Assembly (NCBI RefSeq): GCF_009208775.1
Contig: NZ_WFLM01000003.1
Coordinates: 535,374-599,373 of the forward strand
DNA length: 64,000 bases
Origin: Silvanigrella paludirubra
Lineage (GTDB): Bacteria > Bdellovibrionota_B > Oligoflexia > Silvanigrellales > Silvanigrellaceae
Direction: 5' to 3'
Positions 29,004 through 60,186 of the stretch are shown piece after piece. Every line of letters begins with the position of its first letter. Position 1 is the stretch's first letter. Both the position numbers and the translations under genes were made by a program. The notes under the pieces were generated by a model. That model had not been told where the DNA came from. It ran no database searches and saw nothing but the letters and a program-made list of their open reading frames with translations.

Positions 29004-29015
29004 GTTGACACATGA

Positions 29016-35287: not shown

Positions 35288-35329
35288 GTGTTAACGAAAC
35301 ATTTGTTAGCAGAGCAAAGGAGGATAAGG

Positions 35330-37098: not shown

Positions 37099-37183
37099 AA
37101 AGAGGTTAAGAATTTGTTTAATTTAGAGGAATTTACATTTGCTATAAGAAAGAAAAAGTTTCATTCCACGACGTGGAATGAAA
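37077..37183. promoter_or_regulatory. Twin palindromes, candidate centromere (parS)
   Basis: Two copies of TTCATTCCAC-N3-GTGGAATGAA: 37077-37099 (spacer ACA, perfect 10-bp arms) and 37159-37183 (spacer GAC, perfect 11-bp arms). They lie 59 bp apart, across the end of the pGP6-like gene and the start of the next. Neither has a T-run. A repeated perfect palindrome inside a par operon is the usual form of a centromere or operator. I noticed no third copy in the window. Confidence 0.65.
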
Positions 37184-37197
37184 TTTCGGAGTTTTCT

Positions 37198-38123: not shown

Positions 38124-40172
38124 ATGGAGCAGCTCACTAGTTATTTACATCAAGCAATATGTTTAAAGCCTAAAAAAGAAGGCGGACGATACATATTTAA
38201 AAAATGGGTGAAAGTTAAAAATGGGAATAAAATACCAGTTAATTGCAAAAAATCCGCTAGCCCTGACCTACAATCAACTTATTTTGTGAATCCGGACAAA
38301 ACTGAAGTATTAAGATACATTCGATTGGATATTGATTTTAATAAAAGTCGTGATGAATTTAAAAGTCCAGATAATAAGCTAGATTGGCATTTAATCCAAG
38401 AGCGTTTAAAGCAATATCCTAAACTATTTGAAGCAATTGAATACGTAATAAAAAGCACATCAGGAACTGGTTTTCATATACTTTTTGGATTAGCGCCATT
38501 ACCACTAGACGAACGTACAAATGGAGCTCAAATAAGCGCAAGACAATTGCAATACAATCTAATTCAAATTTTTAATGAGATTGGAATAGGAGCAGATCCA
38601 GCCGCATTAGGATTAAAGCAAGATTTTTGCACATATAATAAGAAAAAAAGCCTTGTTTATCATAATGAAATATTAACAAAAAGAGTAGAAAAAGAGGCAA
38701 AAAAACCAAACTATTTAAAAATAGATGGCGCTGAAGTTTCAAATAAAAAAGAACCATTTATAACTAATTTATTAAAACATACTGAAAATATAGTAGAAGA
38801 ATTAGAGATTAATTATAGATTATATAAAGATATTAGAGTCGAAAAATCTTTTTCAAAATTATTTTTATACTTAATGGGTCTTTATAATCCAAAACAATTT
38901 GATAATAAATCATTTTTAATCGGAGAGAAAAAACTCATTGATTTAAATTTACCGTATGTTTCAGCATATAGTATGATTGAGTTAAAAAAAGAAGAAATAG
39001 TTAAATTGATGGATATTAATATCAGAACCGCTAATATTTATTTTAAAATGGATCGTTTTCATTCTTTATTTCATTTTGAAGAGACGATAGACAATACAAT
39101 AAGGATAGGCTGTAGGCAGTCTAAAATCGTTTTGAAGCAAATAGATAGAGCTCAAAAGGTACTAGCAGCTAACACTTCTCAAAATAGAATTAAATTAAAA
39201 ATAATTGAACCATTTAAGGTACAAGATGGAGAAAGAAATTTAGCAATTGTAAATTGGGCTATTGGGTACAAATGGAATGGATATTCTGAAATCCAGACAT
39301 TAAATAAAATAAGTTTACGTGTTAAGTTAATCCCAAATTTTGAAACTTCAAAGTCGTGCAAAGAAAATCAGTTAAAATGTACAGTTCATTCTATATTTTC
39401 TAATAGAAAAGAATTGTTTGGAATAGGAAAAATAATTTTACCATCTTGGATGGAAGACGATAAATTGTTCCTTAAACGAGCAGCAATTAAAATTTCAAGG
39501 CAAGATAAACTTAGTTTTAGATTAAATATCGAGCAAAGTAACATTATAGTAACAAAAGCTTGCTTTATTTTGAGGCCATTAACTTCTAGTAGGAGTGAAA
39601 CTCCGTGGGGTTTTTCTTGCGGAGCTGTACAGAGCTTTCCACTAAGCATTACAAACAAAGAAAAAATGAGTATTTCTTTTAAAAAGGTTCAAAATTTTTC
39701 TCCAAGTGAATTAAATTTCCAGGGTCCAACAGGGACTTTGCTTTCCTTTCCTATAAAACAAACAAATGTAAAAATAAATGCAGTCACTTTTAATCAACGC
39801 ATTGGATTTTTTTATGAGGGAAAAATGCTGCTTTGTTTGGTTAAAAATAGGCATTATAAGTTAAAAAATGTTTTGCCAAAGCTTAAAGATCTTTTAGGTA
39901 AAACAGCTCATTTAAATTTTATTTCGGTGATACATATGAGGAAAAATACTAAAGCTTATCAAATTCTAGCTTCTCAACTTTACAGCAAAAACATAAATCC
40001 AATAAATTCAAGTCAGATTTGCGGTTATAAATCTTCTAAAGCTGAAAATTTGAACTCTTATTTTATAAAAAGAGCGAAATATCTTGGGGTATCACTTGAG
40101 GAATATTTGAGAGGAACGCAGCAGCCAATTCACAAAACAGAATTTGAAGAAGAAAATAAAATTCCATTTTAA
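38124..40172 (+). CDS. Primase-polymerase-type plasmid replication protein
   Basis: A 682-residue protein whose N-terminal domain looks like an archaeo-eukaryotic primase (AEP/PrimPol): the metal-binding D69-I-D71 in YIRLDIDF, the SGTGFH motif at 113-118 and GIGADPAALGLKQDFCTYN at 154-172, which aligns with the GADxxxxDxxRxxRxPGxxN region of RepB'-like primases (the third acidic position and Arg are altered). The remaining 500 residues are not recognised and show no clear helicase Walker motif. A strong AAGGGGG ribosome binding site precedes the ATG. It is the best candidate replication initiator, with repeats just upstream. Confidence 0.65.
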   Translation: MEQLTSYLHQAICLKPKKEGGRYIFKKWVKVKNGNKIPVNCKKSASPDLQSTYFVNPDKTEVLRYIRLDIDFNKSRDEFKSPDNKLDWHLIQERLKQYPKLFEAIEYVIKSTSGTGFHILFGLAPLPLDERTNGAQISARQLQYNLIQIFNEIGIGADPAALGLKQDFCTYNKKKSLVYHNEILTKRVEKEAKKPNYLKIDGAEVSNKKEPFITNLLKHTENIVEELEINYRLYKDIRVEKSFSKLFLYLMGLYNPKQFDNKSFLIGEKKLIDLNLPYVSAYSMIELKKEEIVKLMDINIRTANIYFKMDRFHSLFHFEETIDNTIRIGCRQSKIVLKQIDRAQKVLAANTSQNRIKLKIIEPFKVQDGERNLAIVNWAIGYKWNGYSEIQTLNKISLRVKLIPNFETSKSCKENQLKCTVHSIFSNRKELFGIGKIILPSWMEDDKLFLKRAAIKISRQDKLSFRLNIEQSNIIVTKACFILRPLTSSRSETPWGFSCGAVQSFPLSITNKEKMSISFKKVQNFSPSELNFQGPTGTLLSFPIKQTNVKINAVTFNQRIGFFYEGKMLLCLVKNRHYKLKNVLPKLKDLLGKTAHLNFISVIHMRKNTKAYQILASQLYSKNINPINSSQICGYKSSKAENLNSYFIKRAKYLGVSLEEYLRGTQQPIHKTEFEEENKIPF

Positions 40173-45855: not shown

Positions 45856-47496
45856 ATGTCTTTATATTTGCAAGATGTCTTTAGAGTTTCTTTATTAAGT
45901 ATTGTTTTTATTATATCAAGCTGCGGTAAAAAAGGTAGTTCAAATACAAATGATTCCACAAACGAAAGCACAAATACGACTGTTCTTCCTCAAGTCATAT
46001 TACCAAATGAAGATACCCTAACATTATATAAAAAAAATGGCAGCGAGAATACTTTTTATAAATCAACAAATCTAGGTGGGCTTGGAGTTGAAACTACTGA
46101 AGACAAACTTGATTTATATTCAGGAATACCTGTTCAAGTGAATTCTAATTATGATACAAATGTTACGATAGATATAATTGATAAATCAGATCAAGAATGT
46201 AAAAATATATTTTCATATTCAAAGTATAGTCCTCAAATCAATATAAATCTTCCAAATTTTATAAAACCTTTAACATGCAATTTAAGCATAAATTTAAATG
46301 CAAAGAGTATTAAAACTGGAGTAGTTGAGAATCCGTCGATTAGTAAAATTAAAGTTCGGTTTAATCTTACAATGAAAGCTTACATGTATAGTAATGACAA
46401 GAATTATTTGAAATTTTCAGGTCAGCAATATCCTGACGATTCAAAATTTCGTGAAATAGTAAGTCAGATTAAGTCAACTAGAAAAGTTTCAATAACAAAT
46501 TTAAGTTTAGATAATTTTAATTTCTTAGAAGGTGCAAAAGATTATATCCAGACGTTTGAAATTAGCAATTCTAGTATTGGTGATTACAATCTTTTTAAAG
46601 AATTCAAAATTTTAAAAGATGTATCTTTAAATAAGCTGAATATCAATGATTCAAGTGCAAAAAAAATACTAGGGATGTTACCGAAGCTTGATAGGTTATC
46701 AATTCGAGATAATTTGTTAACTAGTTTAAGAACTATAATTGATACAAAGCCTGATTTGATTTCTCTTGATGTATCTGCTAATCCGATACAAAATTTATCA
46801 GAAATTAAAGCTCTAGCTAAATTAAATACAGTTATATTGCGAAATATGAATCTAACAACGCTGCTTCCATTAAATAATGTAACACAAATAAAGGATCTTG
46901 ATATTTCTGAAAATCCACTAAGAAGATTTACGGATGTGGATACTGGATATTTATCTAGTTTAATAAATTTGGAAGCTTTAAATGTTTCCGTCGACCGAGA
47001 TAATCCAAATTCTACTCCAATTACCGATAAAGTTTTGAGCGACTATTTTAGATCTTTTGTTTTAGATAGTAAAACACAAAAACTTAAAAAGTTCATAGCA
47101 AGAAATAAATGGGAGAAAAAATATAAGGATTGTAATATGATAAATGATTTTGAAAGAAATATTGGCTCAATTGATTATTTAGAAAATATTGAATATTTAG
47201 ATTTACATGGAAATGGTTGTGTAGACTCATTAGGATTTTATTCTGGTTTAACTTCTCTTCCTTTTATGAACTATCGCAAAATAAAGTATTTGAATATTTC
47301 AGACGCTCCAGTGAGAGATTTTAATCGTGTTATTGATTGGCGAGATAATAATATTACTTTTGTATTTAATGAAACACCTTGGAATTATGATGCAGGGGTG
47401 TTCATGACAAAAGAATCTTGTTTATCAACGTTCCCTACAGGAAATAAAAATCGTCTTCAATGTGAAGGTCTAGATCCAAATTTCAAAAAAAATTAA
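45856..47496 (+). CDS. Leucine-rich-repeat lipoprotein A
   Basis: A 546-residue lipoprotein precursor with a lipobox IISSC (Cys near residue 23) followed by a Ser/Thr/Asn linker. Residues 50-190 form a domain shared with the next gene (GGLG...YSGIPVQV, C-x-N-IFSYSKY). Residues about 195-480 carry leucine-rich repeats (LDRLSIRDNLLTSL, LISLDVSANPIQNLSEI, IKDLDISENPLRRF). Residue Asn/Asp placement fits a bacterial LRR solenoid. As an outer-membrane or surface lipoprotein it could bind other proteins. AAAGGA precedes the ATG. It is paralogous to the gene at 47580. Confidence 0.8.
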   Translation: MSLYLQDVFRVSLLSIVFIISSCGKKGSSNTNDSTNESTNTTVLPQVILPNEDTLTLYKKNGSENTFYKSTNLGGLGVETTEDKLDLYSGIPVQVNSNYDTNVTIDIIDKSDQECKNIFSYSKYSPQININLPNFIKPLTCNLSINLNAKSIKTGVVENPSISKIKVRFNLTMKAYMYSNDKNYLKFSGQQYPDDSKFREIVSQIKSTRKVSITNLSLDNFNFLEGAKDYIQTFEISNSSIGDYNLFKEFKILKDVSLNKLNINDSSAKKILGMLPKLDRLSIRDNLLTSLRTIIDTKPDLISLDVSANPIQNLSEIKALAKLNTVILRNMNLTTLLPLNNVTQIKDLDISENPLRRFTDVDTGYLSSLINLEALNVSVDRDNPNSTPITDKVLSDYFRSFVLDSKTQKLKKFIARNKWEKKYKDCNMINDFERNIGSIDYLENIEYLDLHGNGCVDSLGFYSGLTSLPFMNYRKIKYLNISDAPVRDFNRVIDWRDNNITFVFNETPWNYDAGVFMTKESCLSTFPTGNKNRLQCEGLDPNFKKN

Positions 47497-47579: not shown

Positions 47580-50018
47580 ATGATAAAGAATTATTATTTA
47601 TTTATTTTAGTTTTAGTTACAACAAAATTTCTTTTTGGCTGTGGAATTGAACCAAAAAATGATACAAATTCAAAAGATATAACGGTCTTAAAAACTCCGA
47701 AACTCAATATGTCTGCTTCAATACCGCTGGATCCCATTTATTCTTCTCCAACTCAAATAAAGCTTAATAAAAGTATTAATGTAAATACAGAATCTAAATC
47801 AGAAGTGATCTATAACGAAAGAGGAAATCTTTTTACAGCGACTAAAAATGGAGGGCTCGGTGCTGATTTTGATGACGAAAATAAATTAGCTCCATATTCA
47901 GGAATTCCTATTAAAATAGAAAAAAATGAAATTACAGGAGACCCAACTATTGAAATTTCTGCATCAGGTGTTGTTGGCTCTGCAAATGACGAAGCTTGTC
48001 CAAATTTATTTAACTATAATAAAGCAGAAAATGTTATTTCAATTAATACAAAAAACATTACTGCATTAACTATTTGTAAAGTGACTATTAATGCAAGCTC
48101 TGCTGAAGATAATAAAGTTTATACAGCATCAACAAGTTTTGAAATTGTTTTAAATTTAACTTTTGCAGGATATTATAGGTTAAATGATAAAGGCGCTTTA
48201 TATATTAAGAAATATTCAGGTATTAAAAGCTCTGATTTAGATGACTCTATTTTACGTATTTCCCAATATTTAAAAGATAAATCTAATCAAGATTTAAATT
48301 TAAATTATAACCCTGATTTAATCCCATTAGACGAGAAATTTACAACTTTCGATGCGATTACTGCTGTACAGTCTCTGACTTCACTTTATTTAGCAAATAC
48401 GAATTTAAATAATTTAAATGCAATAATAAATCTACCTAATTTAGTATTACTTGATATATCTGGAACTAAGGTTGACCCTAAAGATTTAAGACTTTTAGCA
48501 AAATTGCCTAACTTAAAAAAGTTATCTGTTCGTGATATGGATATTAAGGATATTTCTATTATAACAAAATACCTTCCAAATCTTGAAGAACTAGATATTT
48601 CTGAAAATACTAAAATTGAGAATTTAGATAATATCAAAAATCTTAAAAATTTAAGAATATTAAAAGCAAAAAGCATTGCTCTTAAGACTTTAAAGCAGTT
48701 AGAAAATCTTACACAAATTTCAGGTTTAGATATTTCAGGAAATGATTTTTCAAAAATTAAAAATGAAGAATCCAATATTTTAATAAATCTTTATAAATTA
48801 ACATCATTAAATATATCAAACTCTAAATTTCCTGATGAAGTCTTAAATAATTATTTTAATTCATTATCTGCAAGTCGTTTGATTTCTTTTATAGATAGAA
48901 ATAAATTTAATAGAAATACAATCGGAGATTGTAATTATAATAATTTTAGTTTAGTTAAGAATATTAAATATTTAATTAATTTAGAATATTTAGATTTAAG
49001 TGGAAATAGTTGTCAGATAGCAAATGATAATTATCAAGGTTTAACTTCGCTAGATTCATTTAAAAAAATGAGTCTTTTAAAAACATTAAACATTTCGAAT
49101 ACTGCCGTTTCAAATCTTGATGGAATAAAAAATTTAAACATTAATAACCTAATTTTAAATGAACCAGACGATAATGGTTTTTATAAACCTGAAAATGCAA
49201 TTATGGTTACAAAAAATCGTTGTAAGGAAGTTCTCGGACAAAGCCAAAAAGCGTGCAATTATCTTTTTGATGGATCGGAAAAATCAATTGAATTTAAAAC
49301 TCCAGGCGCACAATTTTGGACTGTTCCAGCTAACGTAACATCAGTCAAAATTGTAGGATGTTCTGGAGCAAATGGGGGAGCTGGCGGAGGCGGTGGTGGA
49401 GCCGCTGGGGCAATATTTGGTGGATCATGGGGTGGTAGCTCATGGGGAGGCAATGGAGGAAATGCAGGAGCTGTAAACGATGCAGGAGCTGTAGGAGGTG
49501 GTTCAGGGCAAGCAGGAAGACTTTGTTATGATCAAAACAATGAAACAGTTTGTGTTCCAACAGATAGGAACCATTTAGATTCTTGGCAACATGGCGGTTC
49601 AGGTGGATCTGGAGGTCTTGGAGTCATAACAAGCTTTGGAAATCAAAATTTTTCAAATCCATCACAATATATTTTGCGAGATCCAAATTTATCTTGTGTA
49701 GGTGGTGTTAGTGGTTCAGGTGGTCCTGGTGGGACAAACTCTCATATATCAGGTTTAATTGGTGGTCCTGGTGGCGCAGGAGCGACCCCTGCTTACTCGT
49801 ATGGATGGTCATCTAAAATTGAAACATACACGGTGCAGGTAACACCAGGTCAAACAATTCAAATTAATGTCGGTGCAGGAGGTTCTGGCGGCGGCGGCGG
49901 TGCAGGCGGATCAAAGCAAAATGGAGGTTATTATCGTGGCTCCCATGTTGGAAGTCCTGGTTCTGGTGGAAGTTCTGGCTCGGATGGATTTATAAAAATC
50001 TTTTACGAATCATTATAA
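47580..50018 (+). CDS. Leucine-rich-repeat lipoprotein B with Gly-rich C-terminal domain
   Basis: An 812-residue lipoprotein precursor (lipobox LFGC, Cys near residue 21; AAGGAGG ribosome binding site). Residues about 70-200 repeat the domain of the preceding gene (NGGLGADFDDENKLAPYSGI). LRR units span about 225-540 (LTSLYLANTNLNNLNAI, LVLLDISGTKV, LEELDISENTKIENL). From about 575 a second domain begins with FKTPGAQFWTVPANVTSVKI and continues as a Gly-rich region to VTPGQTIQINVGAGGSGGG, the pattern of the glycine-rich surface and phage-tail domain. This extension is absent from the paralogue, suggesting fusion after duplication. It is probably a surface adhesin; that is inferred. Confidence 0.8.
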   Translation: MIKNYYLFILVLVTTKFLFGCGIEPKNDTNSKDITVLKTPKLNMSASIPLDPIYSSPTQIKLNKSINVNTESKSEVIYNERGNLFTATKNGGLGADFDDENKLAPYSGIPIKIEKNEITGDPTIEISASGVVGSANDEACPNLFNYNKAENVISINTKNITALTICKVTINASSAEDNKVYTASTSFEIVLNLTFAGYYRLNDKGALYIKKYSGIKSSDLDDSILRISQYLKDKSNQDLNLNYNPDLIPLDEKFTTFDAITAVQSLTSLYLANTNLNNLNAIINLPNLVLLDISGTKVDPKDLRLLAKLPNLKKLSVRDMDIKDISIITKYLPNLEELDISENTKIENLDNIKNLKNLRILKAKSIALKTLKQLENLTQISGLDISGNDFSKIKNEESNILINLYKLTSLNISNSKFPDEVLNNYFNSLSASRLISFIDRNKFNRNTIGDCNYNNFSLVKNIKYLINLEYLDLSGNSCQIANDNYQGLTSLDSFKKMSLLKTLNISNTAVSNLDGIKNLNINNLILNEPDDNGFYKPENAIMVTKNRCKEVLGQSQKACNYLFDGSEKSIEFKTPGAQFWTVPANVTSVKIVGCSGANGGAGGGGGGAAGAIFGGSWGGSSWGGNGGNAGAVNDAGAVGGGSGQAGRLCYDQNNETVCVPTDRNHLDSWQHGGSGGSGGLGVITSFGNQNFSNPSQYILRDPNLSCVGGVSGSGGPGGTNSHISGLIGGPGGAGATPAYSYGWSSKIETYTVQVTPGQTIQINVGAGGSGGGGGAGGSKQNGGYYRGSHVGSPGSGGSSGSDGFIKIFYESL

Positions 50019-50676: not shown

Positions 50677-50922
50677 ATGAAGCAAAAAAAAGCAATAAAT
50701 GTAAATGAAATTAGAAAAAGAATAAATTTAAGTTTTTCATTAAAGGATACGGATGAATATAAAGTTATTTTGATATCACAATATCAAATGAAAATTAATA
50801 AAAAACAAACTCTTACAGGAGCAAGTCTTTTAAAATATCTAATTATAAAAGGACTAAATGAAATAAATAAAGAATTCGGAGAAGTGGATTTAGTTTTAAA
50901 AAAAGAAGGAGTTATGAAATGA
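50677..50922 (+). CDS. Small basic protein at the head of the secretion operon
   Basis: An 81-residue soluble protein with INVNEIRKRINLSFSLKDTD followed by LTGASLLKYLIIKGLNEINKEF. The strand-helix-helix pattern suggests a ribbon-helix-helix (Arc/MetJ-like) DNA-binding protein, which would suit an operon regulator, but it is not a confident match. Its stop overlaps the next start (ATGA), showing translational coupling. Confidence 0.55.
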   Translation: MKQKKAINVNEIRKRINLSFSLKDTDEYKVILISQYQMKINKKQTLTGASLLKYLIIKGLNEINKEFGEVDLVLKKEGVMK

Positions 50923-51668
50923 AAGTAAATTTTAAAATTACATTGTTATTATTATCTTTATTAAGTTTTGTAAATAATGCTTATGCTGAATGGTCGTATG
51001 CAGGAAAATTTTTAGCAACAACCGCTGCTGGCTGTGCTGTGGGTGGTGCTGGCTCTTATTTTTATGCAAATGGTGCAGGATATGACACACAACCTCGTGC
51101 GATTGTAACCTGGATGGGTGCGGCAACGGGATGCTTAACTGGGGCTTTGTTTAGCTATTTATTCTACGATGATGATAGCAAAACACTTGCACAAGTAAAC
51201 GAACAATTAACAGCAACAAATAATCGATTGCAACTAGAATTACAAAAAAGTGCAAACAATTCAAGTTTTGGTGTTCCCTTGCCAAGCGTTAAATTACCAG
51301 ATTTAAATTCAACATTAAATTCTTTTAAAATTGCTAAAATGGAATCTATTTATGAAATGGATGTGAAAACAAATCCTACAATTGCAGATTGTTCAGGAGA
51401 TTATTATTCCATTTGGCTTGATAGTAACGGCTATGCCCATTCAGCAAAAAAAGATGAAAGGCCACGGAATTTGTGGATACCAGTTTCACCAAACCTTGCC
51501 ATGTCATCATGGCAGTTTATTTATTCTTCAACGGGATGTTTTAAACCACATCCGTCATATGATTACTTTGAAAAAATTGTTCCAGGTTTAGCAAGAATGC
51601 TAGAAAATCAAATTGTAATTACAGCAAAAAATAATCCTCAAATTATAAAAGTTGGTGAAAGTAAGTAA
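50919..51668 (+). CDS. Secreted protein with glycine-zipper region, secretion operon
   Basis: A 249-residue precursor. A signal peptide ending AYA (residues 1-23) is followed by a Gly/Ala-rich hydrophobic pair (TTAAGCAVGGAGSYF and WMGAATGCLTGALFSYLF), a coiled coil (residues 88-110) and a C-terminal domain with three Cys. The glycine-zipper segments suggest membrane insertion, perhaps as an outer-membrane or VirB7-like component. It is translationally coupled to the gene before it. No exact family is recognised. Confidence 0.55.
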   Translation: MKVNFKITLLLLSLLSFVNNAYAEWSYAGKFLATTAAGCAVGGAGSYFYANGAGYDTQPRAIVTWMGAATGCLTGALFSYLFYDDDSKTLAQVNEQLTATNNRLQLELQKSANNSSFGVPLPSVKLPDLNSTLNSFKIAKMESIYEMDVKTNPTIADCSGDYYSIWLDSNGYAHSAKKDERPRNLWIPVSPNLAMSSWQFIYSSTGCFKPHPSYDYFEKIVPGLARMLENQIVITAKNNPQIIKVGESK

Positions 51669-51692
51669 CAATTTTATAAAGGAAAATAATCT

Positions 51693-52028
51693 ATGAAGAA
51701 AATAAATAAAATAATTATTACATTACTATTTATATTTTATCCTCAATTTTCTCATGCAGAAGGTCTTGGAGATATTACAGATAAAATAAAAGAACTAGCA
51801 GAAGATATTTTTGGAATGACGGATTCCGTAAGGGTTTTAGGATTGGCAATTCTTGTTTTTAGTATTGTAATTTGGGCATTAATCCCTCAAGTCAGAAAAA
51901 AATTATCAGATCATTGGGGGACAGTTGGAATTATATTCGTTCTGTGGGTTGTTATGATGTACTTTGGAGAGAATATAAAAACTGCATTAAATGATTCATT
52001 TGCCTTTCAAAAATTAATCAAGAAATAA
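51693..52028 (+). CDS. VirB2-like pilin candidate
   Basis: A 111-residue precursor with a signal peptide (residues 1-22, ending SHA) and two transmembrane helices (VLGLAILVFSIVIWALI and VGIIFVLWVVMMYFG) separated by a short basic loop, the size and topology of VirB2/TrbC pilins. It sits directly before the VirB3-VirB4 gene, the position of virB2 in Ti-type operons. The pilin role rests on topology and position. Confidence 0.6.
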   Translation: MKKINKIIITLLFIFYPQFSHAEGLGDITDKIKELAEDIFGMTDSVRVLGLAILVFSIVIWALIPQVRKKLSDHWGTVGIIFVLWVVMMYFGENIKTALNDSFAFQKLIKK

Positions 52029-52038
52029 GGATTAAAAT

Positions 52039-54777
52039 ATGGAGCACATGAGAGTAACAAGCTGGGAATTTAATCAACCCAATAAGTTTTTTTTTATGAA
52101 CGAAAAATCAATTTTAGTTGGTTTTATTTCATTACTTATTGGAATGTCTTTTTCTGACAGTATTTCAAATTTCTTTTTTAGTGATAGTACAATTAGAGTA
52201 ATAACTCCTTTTATATTTGGGTTTGTAGGATATAAAATGATGGAGTATTTTCTGAATGGAAAATATCCCTCACAAAGGATAGAGAGTATAAAAGGAACAA
52301 TAATTAGATATAAAGGAATCAATAAAATATGGTTAAATGATGAAAAGTTAGCAAATTATAAATTTTCTGGTGATATCAATTCCTTTTTTGATATTGAAGG
52401 CAACGAAATTTTTGGCTTTGAAATCACGTTATCACATGATAATTCATTAAAAACATTTCAAAACATCGTTGAAACGATTTTAAAAGATTTAAAACCACTG
52501 GATCAAATTCAATTTATACGTGTCAGCAAAGATTTAAACAAAGAAAGTCTTTTTGAAAAAAATCCAATTTTAAAAGAAAAAAAAGTAAAACAACAAAATT
52601 TTTATATTTTCTTTTCAATTTCAGATACAACTTTAAAATTAAAAGAAAGTATTAGTAATAAGGTAATTTTAGGAAGGAGGTTAACCCGATCCGAAATCTC
52701 AAATCTAGCAGAATATATATTTGCACCAAGAAGAAAACCTTCGGGAAAAGATTTACCTTTTTATTTAATGTCGATGTTTTTTAATGATAAATATTTAGAA
52801 ACAAGTTCGGATAATTTTGTTACAGCTTCTTCAAGTTTAGCAGCTTTACCAAAGCATTATGTTACAGAACAATTTAAAAATTTTTTAGATCCCATAAAAC
52901 AATTAGATAGTATCATATCTGTTAAATTTACGAAAAACATGAACGTGATGCAATCGTTTAAAGATACGCTCAATATCTTTAAATTTGAAAATCTTGATTT
53001 TAGAAAAAAATCAAATCAAAAAAAATTGGAAGCTTACGAACAACAAAAAATAGACGCATCTGAAGGGAAACAAACAAAATTATTTATGCATTTTTCTATA
53101 GTCGTTACTGGAAATAATAATGACGTTGAGAACGGTCTTCTAGAATTGGAAAATAATGCAGATGAAAGCGAGGTAAATTTTCGTCCTGTATTTGCAAGGG
53201 AAACTCATTTCTTAAAAGAAGTTTTGCTTTCTATCCTTCCAGGCAGTCGTAAAAATAATAGATTTAAAGAGCTTAAAGTAAACTCAACAGAAGAGGCATT
53301 TTTATATATCCCAAGCCCAACATTAGCAAATGATCTAACAGATGATAGAGCATTTCCGATGCGAACAATTGATAATGCTCTTTGGTTATTTCCTTATTAT
53401 AAACCTAAAACAACTTTAATTTGTGGTTTGCCTGGGTTTGGGAAATCCTTACTTGCCTCCTTATTCTTTTATGCAAATATTAAATCGTATCAAAATGGAT
53501 ACCCTGCTGCTGGCTTTGTTTTAGATCTTGGCGACTCATTTCTTTTTCTTGAAGATCAACTTGCTGATTTTATTTTGCAACTTAATTACGATAATAGTGT
53601 TGGTAAATATAAGCCTCTTGAAATTCATCCACTTGAACTATTTAAGCCTTTTGGAGACAGAATAAAATATGCCCAAAGGTTTTTGTGCAATATTATGGGA
53701 TTTGATCCAAGTGATAAAACACAAAGTTTTGCTACTGATGGGGAAGTTGTTAGTAAAAGTTTAGAAGAATTTTATCAGAATAATTTATCTAATCTCACAG
53801 ATTTTAAAAAAATATTGGTAGAAAAATTAGAAGTATTTTTTGCGAATTCAGTGCAAAAGCAAATAAAAATGTCGAATTGGGAAGAGTTTATAGCAAGACT
53901 AAATGTCTTTTGTAAAGGAGGTTTAAATGGTGAAGTTTTTGAACCAGAACATCCCAAATACAATGCGGATGATATAAAAAATGTTCGCTTTTTTTATGCA
54001 AGTAAAAACACCCAAACTAAAGATGATGTTTCTTTAATTTCTGCTTTTGCTTCTCTAGTGATTTCATTTGCCGATCTCATGGAAGAAAAATTTAAATCTG
54101 GCGGTGAAAATGATGCTTCAAACTTTTTTTATTGTGTGGATGAAATGCAGTGGTGGTCGGAATATATGCCTCACACTTGGTTTCGTGAAAGAGCAAATCA
54201 AAATAGAAAATTTGGGGCTTCTCTTTGGCTTATTACACAAAACCTTGAAAATTTAATTGTCCCACGTGCGGAACTGGAAAAGAAAACAATTTCAAGTCCG
54301 TACGCTTTGCTTGAAGCTGTTCAAAGATTCTTTTTTTATACACTCCCACAAAACAATGAAGTGGTTAAAATATTGGCAAAAGAATCCTTAAATGAAAAAG
54401 GAATTGCTTTAAAAGGGGGGCGTGTTGAAAAAATGCATCAAATCGCCAATCGTATTTCTGAAATAAAAAATATTATTTCAATCAAGCGTGATTCGCCAAT
54501 TAAATTAGATCGAATTGTTGGCTACTGTGACGAAGAACTAAATTTAATGCCTGTATGTGTAGATATAGATAAAGAACAACTCTGGGCATTTACAACCCAT
54601 GATGGGGCAAGGTCTATCCGTAAAAAAGCTTTGAAGTATTGCAGATTAACCTATACAGAAACATGTAAATTACTTGCAAAATGGCCTGGTCAAATTCCAG
54701 AAAATCAAGTTTCTAAACAATATGAAAATGACATTCTAAAAACTGCATTTGATTTAAAAGAAATTAGTCTTCAATAA
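52039..54777 (+). CDS. virB4: VirB3-VirB4 fusion ATPase of the type IV secretion system
   Basis: A 912-residue protein. The first 80 residues contain two closely spaced transmembrane helices (SILVGFISLLIGMSF and VITPFIFGFVGYKMM), as in VirB3/TraL. The rest is a VirB4/TraC ATPase with Walker A G463-L-P-G-F-G-K-S470 and Walker B CVDE (residues 699-702) followed by MQWWSEY, and the ITQNLENL region. VirB4 drives pilus assembly and substrate transfer at the inner membrane. Fusions of VirB3 to VirB4 are known in other systems. It starts 10 bp after the pilin gene. Confidence 0.9.
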   Translation: MEHMRVTSWEFNQPNKFFFMNEKSILVGFISLLIGMSFSDSISNFFFSDSTIRVITPFIFGFVGYKMMEYFLNGKYPSQRIESIKGTIIRYKGINKIWLNDEKLANYKFSGDINSFFDIEGNEIFGFEITLSHDNSLKTFQNIVETILKDLKPLDQIQFIRVSKDLNKESLFEKNPILKEKKVKQQNFYIFFSISDTTLKLKESISNKVILGRRLTRSEISNLAEYIFAPRRKPSGKDLPFYLMSMFFNDKYLETSSDNFVTASSSLAALPKHYVTEQFKNFLDPIKQLDSIISVKFTKNMNVMQSFKDTLNIFKFENLDFRKKSNQKKLEAYEQQKIDASEGKQTKLFMHFSIVVTGNNNDVENGLLELENNADESEVNFRPVFARETHFLKEVLLSILPGSRKNNRFKELKVNSTEEAFLYIPSPTLANDLTDDRAFPMRTIDNALWLFPYYKPKTTLICGLPGFGKSLLASLFFYANIKSYQNGYPAAGFVLDLGDSFLFLEDQLADFILQLNYDNSVGKYKPLEIHPLELFKPFGDRIKYAQRFLCNIMGFDPSDKTQSFATDGEVVSKSLEEFYQNNLSNLTDFKKILVEKLEVFFANSVQKQIKMSNWEEFIARLNVFCKGGLNGEVFEPEHPKYNADDIKNVRFFYASKNTQTKDDVSLISAFASLVISFADLMEEKFKSGGENDASNFFYCVDEMQWWSEYMPHTWFRERANQNRKFGASLWLITQNLENLIVPRAELEKKTISSPYALLEAVQRFFFYTLPQNNEVVKILAKESLNEKGIALKGGRVEKMHQIANRISEIKNIISIKRDSPIKLDRIVGYCDEELNLMPVCVDIDKEQLWAFTTHDGARSIRKKALKYCRLTYTETCKLLAKWPGQIPENQVSKQYENDILKTAFDLKEISLQ

Positions 54778-55740
54778 ATGAAGGGTTATGATATGAAATT
54801 AGATTCAGATTATATAATTAAAATAGAAGAAGATAGACAAAATAAGATTCAAAAAAAAAATAGAAGAAGGGTACTCATAGTTACTTTTTTAGTTTCTTCT
54901 TTTATCATGCAAAAATATTTGTTTGCTGTAAACCCTGCGGATACAAGTCTTCTTGCTTCAATTGAAGCAAAAGCAACCGCAATTGTTACTTATGCAAAAA
55001 ATATGCTTGATCTATATAACAAACAAATAGAAGCCGTAAATAATGTATTCAGAGCTGCGGATAAAACAAAACAATTCATGGAAATGATGATTTCTCCTGA
55101 AAAAAATATTTTTTACAAACAAGCAAAACAGCTCTCAGGATATATAAAAACATTTACACATAATAATGATGATCCATTTAAAATTAGACTTAAGAAATTT
55201 GATTTAGAAGCTCAAATACTTGTACAAAAATATGAAGAACTTTCTTATCAATATGACGTAACAGAAAGAGCTTGGAAAAGAGCAGCAAAACCTTTGCTAG
55301 ATAAAGATAAAATGAAGGAAATTAATAGAAATCCATCAAATAGTGCTTATATTTATGCAGCTAATCAAAATGTAAAAGATATGTACTATAGAACAAAAGG
55401 AATGGCTTATGAGCAGGAAATCCAAGAAATTGAAAATCAAATACTTTTAGATCGAATGACAGACAAATTTCCGATTGATAAATCGCCAGAAGAAGTTTTT
55501 TACGAATCAACAAAACATATGTCTATTAAAATTCAATTAGATCAATTAAAAATGATGAAAGAAATTCACTCAACTTTGGTTGCTATGTTGCAAGTTCAAT
55601 CAGGAAATTCAGTTCCAAATACCTCTTTTCCAAAACTTTCAGATTTCAAAAAGGCATATGAAAGAGCTTCCACTGGTTTGCCTTTGGATGACGATAAAAA
55701 GCCAAATGCTTCTTCTGTCTCATCAAATAATGGGAGATAA
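54778..55740 (+). CDS. VirB5-like secretion protein
   Basis: The frame starts right at the virB4 stop (ATG 54778), but ATG 54793 with GAAGGG upstream is an equally good start. One hydrophobic N-terminal segment (VLIVTFLVSSFIMQKYLFA) acts as signal or anchor, and the remainder is almost wholly helical (VTYAKNMLDLYNKQIEAVNN), as in VirB5/TraC minor pilins. Position after virB4 supports this. The C-terminal 25 residues are Ser/Asn-rich and disordered. Confidence 0.65.
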   Translation: MKGYDMKLDSDYIIKIEEDRQNKIQKKNRRRVLIVTFLVSSFIMQKYLFAVNPADTSLLASIEAKATAIVTYAKNMLDLYNKQIEAVNNVFRAADKTKQFMEMMISPEKNIFYKQAKQLSGYIKTFTHNNDDPFKIRLKKFDLEAQILVQKYEELSYQYDVTERAWKRAAKPLLDKDKMKEINRNPSNSAYIYAANQNVKDMYYRTKGMAYEQEIQEIENQILLDRMTDKFPIDKSPEEVFYESTKHMSIKIQLDQLKMMKEIHSTLVAMLQVQSGNSVPNTSFPKLSDFKKAYERASTGLPLDDDKKPNASSVSSNNGR

Positions 55741-55745
55741 AATAA

Positions 55746-56834
55746 ATGATTCTAGATGATATGTTTGAAACATCAACCTATCTTTGTTTGATAGGAGTAG
55801 CGCTTTATATTTCATATAAATATTTATATGGATTTTATAAAAGAGATGCCTTTATTGATATTATTAAATATTTTGGTGCTTTTACAGTTGGATATTTAAT
55901 CTTAAAGTCATTAATAAATATAAATCATACCATCTCTATTGAACAAGATACTGTGCAAGTGCAAGAGGGGATTTATCGAGTTGGTGCTTGGATTTTTCAT
56001 ATCGAATCTATTGCAAAAGCAGCAGAAAGTCTAACTCATGTGATTTCTAATTCCGCTGTAGGCTCTGCTACAGCCAGCGCTTCCATTTTACTTTCTGCAA
56101 TGATGTTCCATTCTCGAATGCTCATGGGAGGATGGAGAAGTCACAACGAAGTTGTGGAAGCTTTTTTTATTTCGCTTGTTACGTTTTTTTGTCTTTCCTA
56201 TTTTGATGTTTTTTTTAATACAATGACATCTTTATTAGATGAGTTTTCAAACATATTTTTTGGCGATGATCTCTACGCAAGATATGCGGAAACAATGGCG
56301 CCAATGAACATGTTATTAGTACAATGCAAAACAACAATATTAGAAGCTAGCGTTTGGGATTTTACAAAACTTATTTCATCGGTTGTTGCTGGTTTTTATA
56401 TTATTATTTTATTTATATTTTCTTGCGTAAATTTTATCTTATTTTCGATTCAATATTTGTGTTTAATGGGAATTCCTTTAGTTACCATCATTTTTACATT
56501 TATGTCGGGAATAGATCCATTTAGACCTATTAGAATAACTGGGGCAGTTGTATTACTTACGTTTTTATCAAAATTACAGATTTTTTTCCTTGCATCCATG
56601 TCAAGATGGACAATCCATGATTATTCAGGATCAATAACAGAAATGAACAATGATATTGTTGATGGTGCTGGCTTTGTTGGAGATAATTTTTTTCTGCTAT
56701 TAAAACTCGTTGGTGGTTTAGCTTTTTTTATCTTAATAATTGCTTTAGTTTCCTGGAAAATGTTTGACTTTATTTTAAACGTTATTGGTGTAAATCAGTT
56801 CGCACAATTAAAAAGTGTTATGAGAAAAGGATAA
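55746..56834 (+). CDS. VirB6/TrbL-like polytopic membrane protein
   Basis: A 362-residue protein with about seven to eight hydrophobic segments, a conserved-looking Gly/Ala region (SAVGSATASASILLSAMMF) and aromatic-rich cytoplasmic turns. The layout and the position between VirB5- and VirB8-like genes fit VirB6, the inner-membrane channel component. Families at this position are poorly conserved, so the call relies on topology and order. Confidence 0.65.
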   Translation: MILDDMFETSTYLCLIGVALYISYKYLYGFYKRDAFIDIIKYFGAFTVGYLILKSLININHTISIEQDTVQVQEGIYRVGAWIFHIESIAKAAESLTHVISNSAVGSATASASILLSAMMFHSRMLMGGWRSHNEVVEAFFISLVTFFCLSYFDVFFNTMTSLLDEFSNIFFGDDLYARYAETMAPMNMLLVQCKTTILEASVWDFTKLISSVVAGFYIIILFIFSCVNFILFSIQYLCLMGIPLVTIIFTFMSGIDPFRPIRITGAVVLLTFLSKLQIFFLASMSRWTIHDYSGSITEMNNDIVDGAGFVGDNFFLLLKLVGGLAFFILIIALVSWKMFDFILNVIGVNQFAQLKSVMRKG

Positions 56835-56840
56835 ATAAAT

Positions 56841-57470
56841 ATGCACTTGGATCATTTAGCTTATTTAGTTCAAAAAAGAATGTGGTTATTTTTTATTCCC
56901 TATGTCTTTATTTCACCAATATTTTATTATTATTTATTTAAAGCTCCTTCTACTCCTCCCGAAAAAATTATGCCGATTGCTTTTGTGGATGCAAATGGAA
57001 ACACTAGAAAGTTATATTGTGGAAAGGATGATGCAAACGATATTAATATGCTTGCTCTTTCTGAGAAAACAGGGAAAGAAATGTTGAACGTATTATTTTC
57101 TTTTCCTGCAAATAAAAAAGAAACAGCGGCACGAATTGCAACCTACTCTAAATATTTTTCTCAAGAAAGAGATTCATCTATTCAGAATTTTTTAAAGTCG
57201 CAAGCTGAAAAAACTTTATCCCTTGCAGATTCAGGAGCGAGTGCAACTTTTAATATAACCTATATTTCAGGTGGCTATGATCCTAAAAATAAAAACTATG
57301 TTGTGGTTTCTGATTTAACTCAAAAATTGGTTCGAAATGGAATAGAAACAACAAAGAAATTCTCGGTAGATATTTATTTAAAAATGACAGCAAAAGATAG
57401 AAAAGAAAGTGAAGGTATTATTTTAGAAATCACATCTGTTAAATTAAGGAACATTAAAAATGAAAGTTAA
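56841..57470 (+). CDS. VirB8/TraE-like secretion protein
   Basis: A 209-residue bitopic protein: a short cytoplasmic N-terminus, one transmembrane helix (MWLFFIPYVFISPIFYYYLF) and a periplasmic domain with helices then strands (YVVVSDLTQKLVRNG, KKFSVDIYLKMTAKDR), the nuclear-transport-factor-2-like layout of VirB8/TraE. It follows the VirB6-like gene by 6 bp and overlaps the next by 11 bp. Confidence 0.7.
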   Translation: MHLDHLAYLVQKRMWLFFIPYVFISPIFYYYLFKAPSTPPEKIMPIAFVDANGNTRKLYCGKDDANDINMLALSEKTGKEMLNVLFSFPANKKETAARIATYSKYFSQERDSSIQNFLKSQAEKTLSLADSGASATFNITYISGGYDPKNKNYVVVSDLTQKLVRNGIETTKKFSVDIYLKMTAKDRKESEGIILEITSVKLRNIKNES

Positions 57471-58341
57471 TATCGTTAATTTAAATCTAATTAAATATTT
57501 TATAATTTTAGTTACAACTTCCTTTTTCATTACTCAACAATCTTTTTCAGAATCACCAGAGGAAATAGAAGGAGTTCTTATTCCTAATAAAGGTTTTAAT
57601 TCCGTTATTCCTTTTGCAACAATGTATCTATCCAAAAAACAACCTCCAGTTATTAAAATAACAGTTGCGCAACCTACTTTGTTATTATTCCCTTTCCAGG
57701 TTTCAAATTGTTGGGGGAATAATAATGCTCTTTCAATTTCTGATGCAAATATTGTCAAAGATTCAACTGGGAAACCAACTAATTTTTCACAAGTCATTTT
57801 AAATGTAAAAGGTGAAGCAATAACAGATGGAAGCGCACCTGATCAAACAGCAATGATCTGTAAAAGTGTTGATAATAATGCATATCCTCTTGGTGTCGAA
57901 TTTGTTGAAGATAACCCATATTCAATCGTAAAGTTTCTCAAAAAACAAGAAAATTATGCTCTTTCACTAGATCAATTTGGATTTGAAAAAGGGTTTTCTG
58001 ATAAAGATAATAGTTCTTATTTCAAAAAAGATAAGAAGAATAAAAATCAGAAAGAAGAAAAACCTGAAGCAATACAAAATAAAATAATTGAAAAAAAGAT
58101 GGAAATAAATGAAGTTAGCCCAAGTTTTGTTAATAAGAATTTAGATAAAAAAAATATTCCATCTTCTTTTAAAGAGAAGAATTCTGAATCAATAAAATCT
58201 AGTTTAGAAAAAATGGGAATTTATTCAGATAATAAAATCCAAAACGATAATGTTACAAAAAGTGATAAAGAAAATAAAATGGAGTCCTTACTAAAAGCTG
58301 CGGGTATCATTGCTGAAAATAAAGGGAAGACAAATGAATAA
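57460..58341 (+). CDS. VirB9/TraK-like outer-membrane complex protein
   Basis: A 293-residue precursor with a signal peptide (residues about 5-30). The mature N-terminal region is beta-rich (PVIKITVAQPTLLLFPFQVS, SQVILNVKGEA), resembling the N-terminal domain of VirB9/TraK. The last 120 residues are a Lys/Asn/Glu-rich linker with no C-terminal VirB9 beta-sandwich visible, so the protein may be reduced or the tail may thread the complex. It is translationally coupled to both neighbours. Confidence 0.6.
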   Translation: MKVNIVNLNLIKYFIILVTTSFFITQQSFSESPEEIEGVLIPNKGFNSVIPFATMYLSKKQPPVIKITVAQPTLLLFPFQVSNCWGNNNALSISDANIVKDSTGKPTNFSQVILNVKGEAITDGSAPDQTAMICKSVDNNAYPLGVEFVEDNPYSIVKFLKKQENYALSLDQFGFEKGFSDKDNSSYFKKDKKNKNQKEEKPEAIQNKIIEKKMEINEVSPSFVNKNLDKKNIPSSFKEKNSESIKSSLEKMGIYSDNKIQNDNVTKSDKENKMESLLKAAGIIAENKGKTNE

Positions 58342-59434
58342 AAGAGTAAAAAATTATTTAATTTATGGTGGAGTTGGGCTTCTTGCTTTTGTGATAATTA
58401 AATCTCTTTCATCTTCAAAAAAAAGCTCTGATGTTTTAAATAAAGAACTAGATGGGCTGTCTTTCACTGAGCATTTAAGAGCAAATTCACATGACGTAAA
58501 TAAAAATACAGAACAACCTACGATGTCTGATACCGTAGTTGAAAGTAAAAATATAGATAAAGAAAAAAATCCAAAATTAGATAGTTGGTCAATGACCAAG
58601 CTTGTAGCATCAGGTAAAGTACCAGAAGAAATTGCAAGTAATATTACAGCAGTAAATGACAATGCTTTATTTGATGCAAATAAACCACCAACAGTTAAAC
58701 ATGCTGATATTAAAACATTCAGAAATTCAGACTCACAACAGCAAGAAAAAATTTATGAACAACCTAAAGCATCTGAATTACCCAAAACAAAATTTGCTCG
58801 TCAGTCTAAATTAAGCGGTCCAGTGACAACCCTTACAGGCATGGCGCAAACTACAGATAGAGGAGCCATGTTTAAAGCAGGAACTCGTGTGCTTGCTATT
58901 TTACCTGATAAGTTAACTATTACTTCAGGAGAATCTGTTTATACAAGTCTAACCGCTCTTGGTTCTGCGGATCAAAAAGTTCCAAACAATTTAACTTTTG
59001 TGGGAAAAGCAAAATTAAATAAATCCGAAAGACGAGTTGAAATTGCAATAGAAAATTGTGTGAACACAAAAGATTCGTCTCCACCAATGCCTTGCGTGGC
59101 TGTTGTGAAGGACATTTTAGGAGATAATGGACTTACTGGGAAAATTTACGATCCTTCGAACTGGCAACTTATTATAGCTTCTGTTGGGGCTTATATTAAT
59201 ACCTCTGTACTTTCTCAGCTAACAACTTCAGCAACACAGAATGGTCAAACAGTCGATCAAACTACATCAAATCAAATCAGACAAAGTATTGCTGGAACGG
59301 TTACGGCTGTTGCAAATCGTCTGATATCAAATTTGGATAAATCAGGCACGGAAATTGTTCTTGCGCAAGGAGCAATTGTTCAAATATTTTTCACTGAAAC
59401 AACTCAAACATGGAATGATCAAAATAACACATGA
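58334..59434 (+). CDS. virB10: VirB10/TraB-like scaffold protein
   Basis: A 366-residue protein starting at ATG 58334 with AGGGAAG upstream, overlapping the previous stop by 8 bp. One N-terminal transmembrane helix (NYLIYGGVGLLAFVIIKSL), a long polar linker, then the TrbI/VirB10 beta domain from about residue 180 (FKAGTRVLAILPDKLTI, LNKSERRVEIAIENCV, GLTGKIYDPSNWQ, SGTEIVLAQGAIVQIFFTE). VirB10 spans both membranes and senses energy from the inner-membrane ATPases. Confidence 0.85.
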   Translation: MNKRVKNYLIYGGVGLLAFVIIKSLSSSKKSSDVLNKELDGLSFTEHLRANSHDVNKNTEQPTMSDTVVESKNIDKEKNPKLDSWSMTKLVASGKVPEEIASNITAVNDNALFDANKPPTVKHADIKTFRNSDSQQQEKIYEQPKASELPKTKFARQSKLSGPVTTLTGMAQTTDRGAMFKAGTRVLAILPDKLTITSGESVYTSLTALGSADQKVPNNLTFVGKAKLNKSERRVEIAIENCVNTKDSSPPMPCVAVVKDILGDNGLTGKIYDPSNWQLIIASVGAYINTSVLSQLTTSATQNGQTVDQTTSNQIRQSIAGTVTAVANRLISNLDKSGTEIVLAQGAIVQIFFTETTQTWNDQNNT

Positions 59435-60186
59435 TAAAAAAATATATTATTATATTTATGATTGCGTTTCATTTTCATTTTAAAATTCAAGCGAAAATTG
59501 TTTTAACATCTCCAGCAGCAGGAGCATTAATTAAAGATTTTAATGGTGCTGATGTGCAAGGAATTTTAATTGATACAAGGCAAAGTAAACAAGTTTATTC
59601 TGCGATGGACGGAAAAGTTATCTATGCTGGTGAATTTTCTAAAATCCAACAAAATATGATCGTTATTCAATCAGAAACATATAAAATATATACAATTTAT
59701 CGCAATGTAAATCATTTTAAAATTAAGGAGGGAATGATTGTTAAATCTGGACACAACTTAGGCACTTCAAATAAGTATTTATTATTTGAAGTGAGAACGT
59801 TTGATGGCAAGGCTCAAGATCCTAATGATTATTTAACTATAAATAGTCACCATCAAAAGAAAAAAAAGATAAAAACGGATTTCTATCCAAAATTTGTGGA
59901 TTTTATGAAGCGCAATGGTTTTTTTCATCACGAAATTCCGACAATGTTTTGTATTGCTTCCTGGGAATCTTCGTTCAATCGGAATGCGGTAAATATTAAT
60001 AAAAATCGGACACAAGATACAGGTTTATTTCAAATCAATGATATTTGGTTAAAAAAATGCGACATGTCCAGAAAAGATTTATTTGATGCAACAAATAACG
60101 CTAGATGTGCAAAAGTTGTTTTAAGAAATCAAGGTTTTCGTGCATGGGTTACATATAATAAATATTCAAGATTTTGTAGTATCTAA
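59431..60186 (+). CDS. VirB1-like murein enzyme: degenerate M23 domain plus c-type-lysozyme-like domain
   Basis: A 251-residue secreted protein with a signal peptide (residues 1-21). Residues 45-137 have the beta-fold layout of LytM/M23 endopeptidases (YSAMDGKVIYAGEF, YTIYRNVNHFKIKEGMIVKSG, YLLFEVRTFDGKAQDPNDYL), but the zinc-binding HxH/GxH residues are missing. Residues 150-251 look like a c-type lysozyme: C174, E179 (CIASWESSFN), D196 (QDTGLFQIN) exactly 17 residues after Glu as in hen lysozyme, C210, C226 (RCAKVV), and WVTYNKYSRFC. It would open peptidoglycan for the secretion apparatus. Its start overlaps the virB10 stop (ATGA). Confidence 0.75.
   Translation: MIKKYIIIFMIAFHFHFKIQAKIVLTSPAAGALIKDFNGADVQGILIDTRQSKQVYSAMDGKVIYAGEFSKIQQNMIVIQSETYKIYTIYRNVNHFKIKEGMIVKSGHNLGTSNKYLLFEVRTFDGKAQDPNDYLTINSHHQKKKKIKTDFYPKFVDFMKRNGFFHHEIPTMFCIASWESSFNRNAVNINKNRTQDTGLFQINDIWLKKCDMSRKDLFDATNNARCAKVVLRNQGFRAWVTYNKYSRFCSI

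Follow-up and report, generated by a model that had tools for sequence, protein, structure and literature searches.

A probable mating-pair-formation operon of a conjugative plasmid-like element in Silvanigrella paludirubra

The window analysed here, a stretch of 64,000 nucleotides from S. paludirubra (contig NZ_WFLM01000003.1, positions 535,374 to 599,373), contains a run of genes in the order of a type IV secretion system (T4SS), which raises the question of what such an apparatus serves. A preliminary description, made from the sequence alone, had proposed a compact secretion operon with several barely recognisable members, either an effector-secreting system or part of a larger conjugation locus. 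The evidence assembled here favours conjugation. With a probability of about 0.86, the operon forms the mating-pair-formation (MPF) half of an element of Silvanigrellales, plasmid-like and conjugative, that either integrated into the chromosome or was placed there by scaffolding.

Compactness and poor recognisability were both confirmed. Ten intact ORFs occupy positions 50677-60186 on the plus strand, neighbours either overlapping or lying tens of bases apart, and are arranged, from the 81-aa ORF to the VirB1-like enzyme, in the order of Table 1. For eight of the ten proteins, no T4SS structural model in Pfam or NCBIfam matched at E<=1, a threshold at which the HMMER filters discard most matches above 0.1. 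Comparison of the operon proteins by hhalign with single F sequences (TraU, TraW, TraH, TraN, TraF) likewise gave no match. The lack of Pfam and NCBIfam matches could suit a set of envelope genes unrelated to a T4SS whose order happens to suggest one, as could the E value of only 0.28 that a profile of seven VirB4s yields on the operon VirB4, compared with 5e-143 on the VirB4 of plasmid C1, which was left out of the profile. That non-T4SS reading is nearly excluded, given a profile-profile match of VirB4, the TrbI match of VirB10, the fold of VirB8, the VirB1-like enzyme and a gene order conserved in four loci.

Table 1. Features of the window and the evidence on which they were assigned (positions are those of the window).
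Feature	Position	Strand	Evidence
IS3-like element, left boundary of unit	28983..30265	-	Long exact repeats with right copy
Transposase-like ORFs in left IS	29016-29756, 29846-30211		Family by eye
Plasmid-type ParA	35273..36310	+	Pfam AAA_31 1.3e-32; 41% to pGTC16762-1 protein
Two genes syntenic with plasmid genes beside ParA gene, ParB-like by position only	36328..37875	+	29%, 31% to pGTC16762-1
Putative plasmid replication protein, 682 aa, by position only	38124..40172	+	59% to pGTC16762-1 protein; no Pfam match
LRR lipoprotein-like protein 1	45856..47496	+	73% to pGTC16762-1; LRR_4 2e-4, below cut-off
LRR protein 2, Gly-rich C-terminus	47580..50018	+	78% to pGTC16762-1; LRR_4 3.3e-15
81-aa cytosolic ORF, operon gene 1	50677..50922	+	54% to pGTC16762-1; without meaningful family
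249-aa exported protein, glycine-zipper-like stretch, conserved	50919..51668	+	In 4/4 loci, 42-48%; Gly-zipper matches weak
Pilin-like (VirB2 position), 111 aa	51693..52028	+	Signal-like N-terminus and two hydrophobic segments
VirB4 ATPase, 912 aa, N-terminal hydrophobic segment	52039..54777	+	hhalign against VirB4 set; motifs
VirB5-like by position	54778..55740	+	18-31% to homologues in other loci
VirB6-like multi-spanning membrane protein	55746..56834	+	Five hydrophobic segments
VirB8	56841..57470	+	Predicted NTF2-like fold
VirB9-like by position, non-conserved C-terminal tail	57460..58341	+	Similarity to homologues
VirB10	58310..59434	+	Pfam TrbI 6.8e-7, 29.8 bits (curated cut-off 35)
VirB1-like: M23 peptidase and lysozyme/SLT domain	59431..60186	+	Pfam M23 1.1e-12, Lys 2.7e-12, SLT 1.1e-6
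Two small ORFs; plasmid homologues between VirB1 and T4CP	61421-61636, 61725-62048	+	66%, 74% to pGTC16762-1

The VirB4 assignment derives from profile-profile comparison. Against a set of eight VirB4s, hhalign returned a probability of 96.8 (E 2e-10), compared with 37.7 for a VirB11 set and 55 for F TraC. Matches to single VirB4 sequences were weak (Frigidibacter 64, Bradyrhizobium 45, R388 33, the other five 0.3-11). A Walker A motif lies at residues 463-469 and a DE box at 696. No Pfam VirB4 model matches the protein, and the TraC model reaches it at E 0.044; the probable conjugative MPF is divergent enough to escape every Pfam VirB4 model. Searches for VirB4 found no match in 50,697 phage records or in IMG/VR, a genome contig database queried with the single protein gave no result, and the PDB searched with the VirB4 profile returned 0 matches. 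A VirB3-VirB4 fusion, as previously suggested, is plausible on topology grounds, since a hydrophobic stretch lies at the N-terminus where that of VirB3 would be. However, hhalign found no similarity of this region to VirB3 (probability 0.3), and Walker A sits where it does in unfused VirB4s (438-464; TrbE 495, F TraC 486), unlike in three fused ones (541-552).

The remaining members vary in how firmly they can be named. Modelled by AF2 with a pLDDT of 65.6, the VirB8 candidate was compared by VIA-align, which re-examines Foldseek's own list: ranks 1-14 are all VirB8, TraM, DotI, IcmL or TrwG (Z 9.8-11.3), a phage protein takes rank 15, followed by unrelated NTF2-like proteins (Z 8-9). In Foldseek itself plastid ARC6/PARC6 domains filled all of the first eight places, and one of nine matches at E<=0.001 was VirB8-like. 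The fold of the model supports the VirB8 identity, and VirB8 is common to other MPF classes too. The VirB1-like protein matches B1 with an hhalign probability of 82.7. In VirB10, the ATG at 58334 may be the true start. The identities of the pilin, VirB5, VirB6 and VirB9 rest on position, together with size and topology; the best hhalign match of the pilin is B2, at an insignificant probability of 4.5, and the VirB5-, VirB6- and VirB9-like proteins found no hhalign profile support. The disordered tail ascribed to VirB9 is indeed not conserved, as similarity to homologues of varying length spans 164-171 of 293 residues, but disorder as such found no support, the AF2 model (pLDDT 35.9) being too poor for use.

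The preliminary description placed neither VirD4 nor a relaxase in the window. This statement, correct for the window itself, is misleading for the locus. Searching the same contig outside the window recovered a UvrD-like helicase, a MOBF relaxase and a TrwB-type coupling protein (T4CP) at contig positions 603191-614386, and a putative RHH gene and an oriT-like core complete a set located 4-16 kb past the window end. The relaxase starts 5 kb and the T4CP 13 kb beyond it. The T4CP (612101-614386) matches PF10412 at 2.6e-47. The relaxase, of 2,482 aa, matches PF08751 at 3e-77, carries Tyr pairs near its N-terminus and HxH at 252, and holds AAA_30 helicase and DNAG_N plus Toprim domains in the same chain. 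None of the MPF, T4CP and relaxase ORFs is disrupted, and both Walker and relaxase/primase motifs are present. The RHH gene is weakly assigned (RHH_1 E 0.1 here; RHH_5 0.027 on plasmid pGTC16762-1). At contig position 615043, the 13-base core TGGCGTAGTGTGTG adjoins seven of the twelve TGACGTCA copies of the 680-kb contig, and in pGTC16762-1 and in plasmid C1 it also stands beside putative RHH genes. Across 56 genomes the core occurs in six places, five of them on TrwC-bearing contigs, the exception being contig C85 of G052, a genome without detected TrwC; a reversed control gave 0. Its conservation near relaxase genes makes it a candidate oriT. A profile of four VirB11s found nothing below E 5 in the 65-kb element, whereas the VirB11 of plasmid C1, outside the profile, scores 3.5e-38. 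A T4CP and a relaxase therefore do accompany the operon, but a standard MPF type does not, as the MPF proteins are divergent and VirB11 was not found.

Plasmid pGTC16762-1 (AP029160.1) of Pigmentibacter ruber carries the same set. By blastp, nine of the ten operon proteins match its proteins in the same order, the pilin being linked through a Spirobacillus cienkowskii homologue (direct alignment 24%). VirB4 is 47% and the relaxase 42-43% identical. Both elements share a gene order in which the LRR genes are followed by the MPF operon and then by T4CP, relaxase and UvrD, and both have related par and rep-like genes. They differ in that pGTC16762-1 is a free 140-kb plasmid with the whole run on one strand and with its putative RHH gene and oriT core apart from the T4CP, whereas the T4CP-relaxase block of S. 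paludirubra is inverted relative to it. A weak VirB11-profile match occurs on the plasmid at 90245-90904 (E 0.0068; 6e-4 with the C1 VirB11 in the profile). Its transfer genes are annotated as hypothetical proteins, apart from the UvrD-like one (AAA family ATPase), and it is typed non-mobilizable despite a complete-looking transfer set. Conjugation in this clade, which includes human-sample isolates, is therefore probably undercounted.

Two direct IS copies flank the S. paludirubra unit, which lies in a chromosomal contig, spans about 65 kb and carries par and rep-like genes. The rep-like protein matches only two Pigmentibacter plasmid records, and the first of the two genes at the ParB position has no Pfam match. 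The right IS copy lies outside the window (contig positions 630727-631358) and contains a 96-N gap, so that integration could be a scaffold artefact; either a plasmid has integrated here or the scaffold was joined through the IS. For site-specific integration, no att-like repeat or tRNA copy was seen at the flanks, which show only the IS copies and short AT-rich matches. By eye, the IS has no clear target-site duplication. An immobilised or decaying remnant, from a plasmid that entered the chromosome through IS recombination and has lost transfer, would agree with the direct IS copies, with the distance between two flank genes (93 kb here, 4-10 kb in G002, G003, G005 and G006, four of five genomes tested, and about 39 kb in G007), and with the inverted block on a contig bearing 14 tRNA/tmRNA genes, on account of which the unit may be immobile here. 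Yet the transfer ORFs are intact, the par and rep-like genes are kept, and the N gap permits a free plasmid joined in the scaffold only, which leaves this alternative rather unlikely.

If the conjugative reading is correct, VirB4, VirB8 and VirB10, presumably with the VirB6-like, VirB9-like and 249-aa proteins, would form the envelope channel and the VirB2-like protein a pilus, while the M23-lysozyme protein would open the wall. The putative RHH protein may bind palindromes adjoining oriT, where the MOBF protein would nick, at a presumed nic position, and unwind the DNA, and the coupling protein would pass it to the channel. Conjugative primases generally prime the complementary strand in the recipient, and the DnaG-type primase fused here probably does so too. 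One protein would thereby join nicking, unwinding and priming. We infer both transfer itself and the role of the VirB5-like protein. MOBQ relaxases with primase and MOBF relaxases with helicase are described in PMC12857230, and conjugation proteins of several domains that include DnaG-like Toprim primases in PMC5512222. Within the reach of the sequence and literature searches made here, the MOBF relaxase-helicase-DnaG-primase fusion is new.

Effector secretion towards eukaryotic hosts or other bacteria finds no support in this genome. Two LRR proteins accompany the operon, relatives have been found in a human patient and in Daphnia, and the Daphnia pathogen S. cienkowskii has a copy without detected DNA-transfer genes; with relaxase, T4CP and oriT-like core all on the same unit, such a function in S. 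paludirubra is nonetheless highly improbable. For S. cienkowskii, whose channel lacks detected transfer genes, it is possible. The chromosomal operon there keeps eight genes in order, the first coding for the 249-aa protein and the last for VirB10 (G004, QOVW01000021.1, and G007; VirB4 47-48%), but has no VirB1. Neither genome, both 96% complete, matches PF10412, PF02534, PF08751 or PF03432 (the MOBP/Q type), that is, a coupling protein or a tested relaxase family, and the oriT core was found in neither. The channel is apparently under purifying selection, with the pilin gene changing fastest. By term search, T4SSs are unmentioned in the main text of two S. cienkowskii genome papers (PMC12321486, PMC6284087). 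A table line of the review PMC7308576 lists plasmid-encoded T4SSs for Silvanigrella aquatica and 3.94 Mb for S. paludirubra.

Among known systems, R388 Trw (MPF_T, MOBF) shares the order B2-B4-B5-B6-B8-B9-B10 and an accessory-T4CP-relaxase module. The putative RHH gene, T4CP and relaxase here are ordered like their R388 counterparts trwA, trwB and trwC. R388 differs in having VirB11 and a separate VirB3, and its sequences are almost unrecognisable against this operon. Bartonella Trw, in which trwJ corresponds to VirB5, offers a second comparison. The S. cienkowskii channel is a candidate domesticated system resembling it by analogy. According to PMC2883598, Bartonella Trw is a conjugation-derived T4SS without coupling protein and has multiple trwJ copies; in S. 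cienkowskii the VirB5-like gene is duplicated in G004 but not in G007, and the pilin gene is not multiplied. More tentatively, the Silvanigrellales loci may represent an undescribed VirB11-free MPF lineage, missed by standard VirB4 models and equipped with the MOBF relaxase-helicase-DnaG-primase, whose S. cienkowskii channel, domesticated on the chromosome after loss of DNA-transfer genes, would now serve as a pilus or delivery apparatus directed at the host. S. cienkowskii would then offer an example, open to testing, of conjugation machinery put to other use in a pathogen, an independent parallel to Bartonella Trw.

Judged from its sequence, the operon is ordinary in kind: a mating-pair formation (MPF) module for conjugation, with transfer genes close by. 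What appears unusual is its divergence, the lack of VirB11 and a putative relaxase-helicase-primase chain. The preliminary description had found no VirD4 or relaxase and had given part of a larger conjugation locus as one of two readings. The absence holds within the window, but a coupling protein (T4CP) and a TrwC relaxase are encoded on the same contig just past its end, which bears out the larger locus. The order putative RHH gene, T4CP, relaxase is that of the accessory-T4CP-relaxase counterparts in R388. VirB11, which the description had also missed, was not found anywhere in the 65-kb element. An HMM built from four VirB11s gave nothing below E 5 there and, as a control, recovered at 3.5e-38 the VirB11, absent from the profile, of C1, a second plasmid-like contig of the same genome.

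Features of the plasmid-like element (contig C4) and neighbouring or related loci
Feature	Location	Strand	Evidence or remark
Group II intron-type reverse transcriptase ORF	window 25451-26755		left of IS boundary; 30% to annotated ltrA of pGTC16762-1
LRR proteins (two)	window 45856-50018		upstream of operon
MPF operon, ten intact ORFs filling the interval	window 50677-60186	+	
Mrr-type restriction endonuclease gene	window 62151-62933		between MPF operon and T4CP-relaxase block
UvrD-like helicase	C4:603191-604603	-	
2,482-aa protein	C4:604627-612075	-	TrwC relaxase 3e-77, AAA_30 helicase 3.2e-42, DNAG_N 3.2e-31, Toprim
TrwB-type coupling protein	C4:612101-614386	-	PF10412 2.6e-47
Putative RHH gene, 123 aa	C4:614383-614754	-	weak RHH-like match
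ORFs with large-clostridial-toxin-type domains (pore-forming; glycosyltransferase)	G004:C80 (L011) 147-3767 and 5003-6811		Spirobacillus cienkowskii, beside T4SS

Family assignments within the operon are of uneven strength. A Pfam and NCBIfam search of the ten ORFs returned TrbI for VirB10 (6.8e-7, under the cut-off), M23 (1.1e-12) and lysozyme (2.7e-12) for the last gene, a TraC match at 0.044 for VirB4, and no other informative match; homologues from the plasmid (seven) and from S. cienkowskii (three) matched no better. Profiles from four loci (the element, the Pigmentibacter ruber plasmid pGTC16762-1 and two S. cienkowskii genomes) were set against small reference collections from R388, IncX3/X4, Campylobacter, Bradyrhizobium, Frigidibacter, pAKD4 and F plasmids, plus the C1 VirB4. 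VirB4 matched its own set (probability 96.8, E 2e-10; F TraC 55, VirB11 38) and the last gene matched VirB1 (82.7). B2, B6 and B10 ranked their own family first, yet at only 4.5, 0.6 and 1.4, and B5, B8 and B9 found no reference above 1. Single VirB4 reference sequences scored between 0.3 and 64. For the VirB8 candidate, an AF2 model built on two sequences (pLDDT 65.6) retrieved solely VirB8-family proteins at VIA-align ranks 1-14 (Z 9.8-11.3), while Foldseek ranked plastid ARC6-type domains first.

Evidence on the VirB3-VirB4 fusion proposed earlier points both ways. The 912-aa VirB4 has an N-terminal hydrophobic stretch where the membrane hairpin of VirB3 would sit, and the 10 bases between the pilin and VirB4 genes are too few for a separate virB3. 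However, Walker A lies at 463-469 across four VirB4 homologues, as in four unfused VirB4s (438-464; pAKD4 TrbE 495, F TraC 486) rather than three fusions (541-552), and a search of residues 1-115 found no similarity to VirB3. A fusion with a shortened VirB4 N-terminus is possible.

The S. paludirubra assembly (G000) comprises 3.93 Mb in 30 contigs, and the window corresponds to C4:535374-599373. Homologues of the element's par, rep-like, LRR, MPF and transfer genes occur on pGTC16762-1, where LRR, MPF, T4CP, relaxase and UvrD genes form a single run, whereas the T4CP-relaxase-UvrD block of the element is inverted. The LRR proteins share 73-78% with the plasmid's, against 31-54% for T4SS proteins (blastp) and 24% for the pilin. 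In every one of the seven genomes searched, another protein has the same Gly-rich C-terminus as the second LRR protein. MOB-suite types pGTC16762-1 as non-mobilizable despite its T4CP, MOBF relaxase and MPF genes, which are annotated as hypothetical proteins. Contig C4 carries 14 tRNA/tmRNA genes. A permease gene and a topoisomerase gene are 93 kb apart here, against 4-10 kb in four relatives (G002, G003, G005, G006); in G007 (S. cienkowskii) the distance is about 39 kb and the arrangement is turned. The 65-kb unit is bounded by a 1,283-bp IS3-like element and a direct, near-identical copy containing a 96-N gap. Together, these features point to an integrated plasmid, or to a plasmid linked to the chromosome in the scaffold only.

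Upstream of the putative RHH gene, seven TGACGTCA palindromes lie within 195 bp, of 12 in the whole 680-kb contig; when the region was shuffled 20,000 times by mononucleotide, 24 shuffles produced one palindrome and no shuffle produced more. Beyond them lies TGGCGTAGTGTGTG. It shares bases with the right arm of an inverted repeat, GCCAC/GTGGC, which pGTC16762-1 has and C1 lacks. The 13-base core of TGGCGTAGTGTGTG also adjoins the putative RHH genes of both plasmids, accompanied by eight TGATTCA (of 54 on the plasmid) on pGTC16762-1 and two TTACGTAA on C1, and in each case the core lies on the opposite strand from the RHH gene. Of 56 genomes scanned, four contain the 14-mer, at six places in total, and five of these places are on TrwC-bearing contigs; its reversed pattern has no occurrence in the 56. 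The conserved core is taken as a candidate oriT core.

C1 (43,952 bp; L014, L015, L016) carries a second conjugation system, with recognisable VirB2, VirB4, B9, B10, VirB11, VirB1, T4CP and MOBF relaxase, a weaker VirB3 (0.013) and an oriT-like core of the element's type. Its ends are repeated, and it is probably a circle of about 44 kb. In G005, a relative whose genome has no element-type VirB4 or TrwC, a 37.7-kb contig (C9; L098, L099) bears par-like genes, a T4CP with 32% identity to that of the element, and several genes resembling other genes of the element.

The distribution of this system is narrow. Counting the source genome, 3 of 56 relatives have this VirB4 (by profile, the same three of 58 in the phylum). 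It also occurs in one of 72,556 plasmid records, in no phage record and in one named genome contig, QOVW01000021.1 of S. cienkowskii, which is taken to be G004:C80. At least 5,000 plasmid records match the relaxase; among the 5,000 compared, pGTC16762-1 alone covers 80% of the query, and the other 29 matches listed reach at most 34%. The primase half matched 249 records, none above 80% coverage (P. ruber 78%); the other 24 listed are either dnaG genes or lack annotation, and none carries the name relaxase. Among phages, 218 records matched the relaxase query, none above 80%.

Of greatest interest is the channel-only copy in S. cienkowskii. Both genomes (G004, G007) retain the operon from the 249-aa gene through VirB10, with no match to PF10412, PF02534, PF08751 or PF03432 and no oriT core. 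G007 is a single contig of 2,806,830 bp; the published genome description gives a 2.81-Mbp circle, its authors thinking plasmids unlikely. All eight genes are intact in both; a comparison of the two genomes gives a dN/dS of 0.24 across 8,376 joined bases and 0.07-0.55 per gene, most having few changes. The reading proposed is possible domestication of the channel; the main alternative is decay too recent to be visible. Between the two toxin-type ORFs of G004 lie ORFs that look transposase-like by eye, and no toxin-type ORF was seen at the corresponding place in G007. Within the operon, dN peaks in the pilin gene, at 0.058 against 0.002-0.011 for the other genes. G004 has two VirB5-like copies and G007 one. 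For one G004 copy the stretch compared ends where the ORF ends, and the TAG counted there is accordingly read as the stop codon of that copy. A possibly domesticated channel has a counterpart in Bartonella Trw, which lacks its coupling protein and carries trwL and trwJ in multiple copies (PMC2883598): the two systems are alike in the absent coupling protein and in the multiplied VirB5-like (G004) or trwJ genes.
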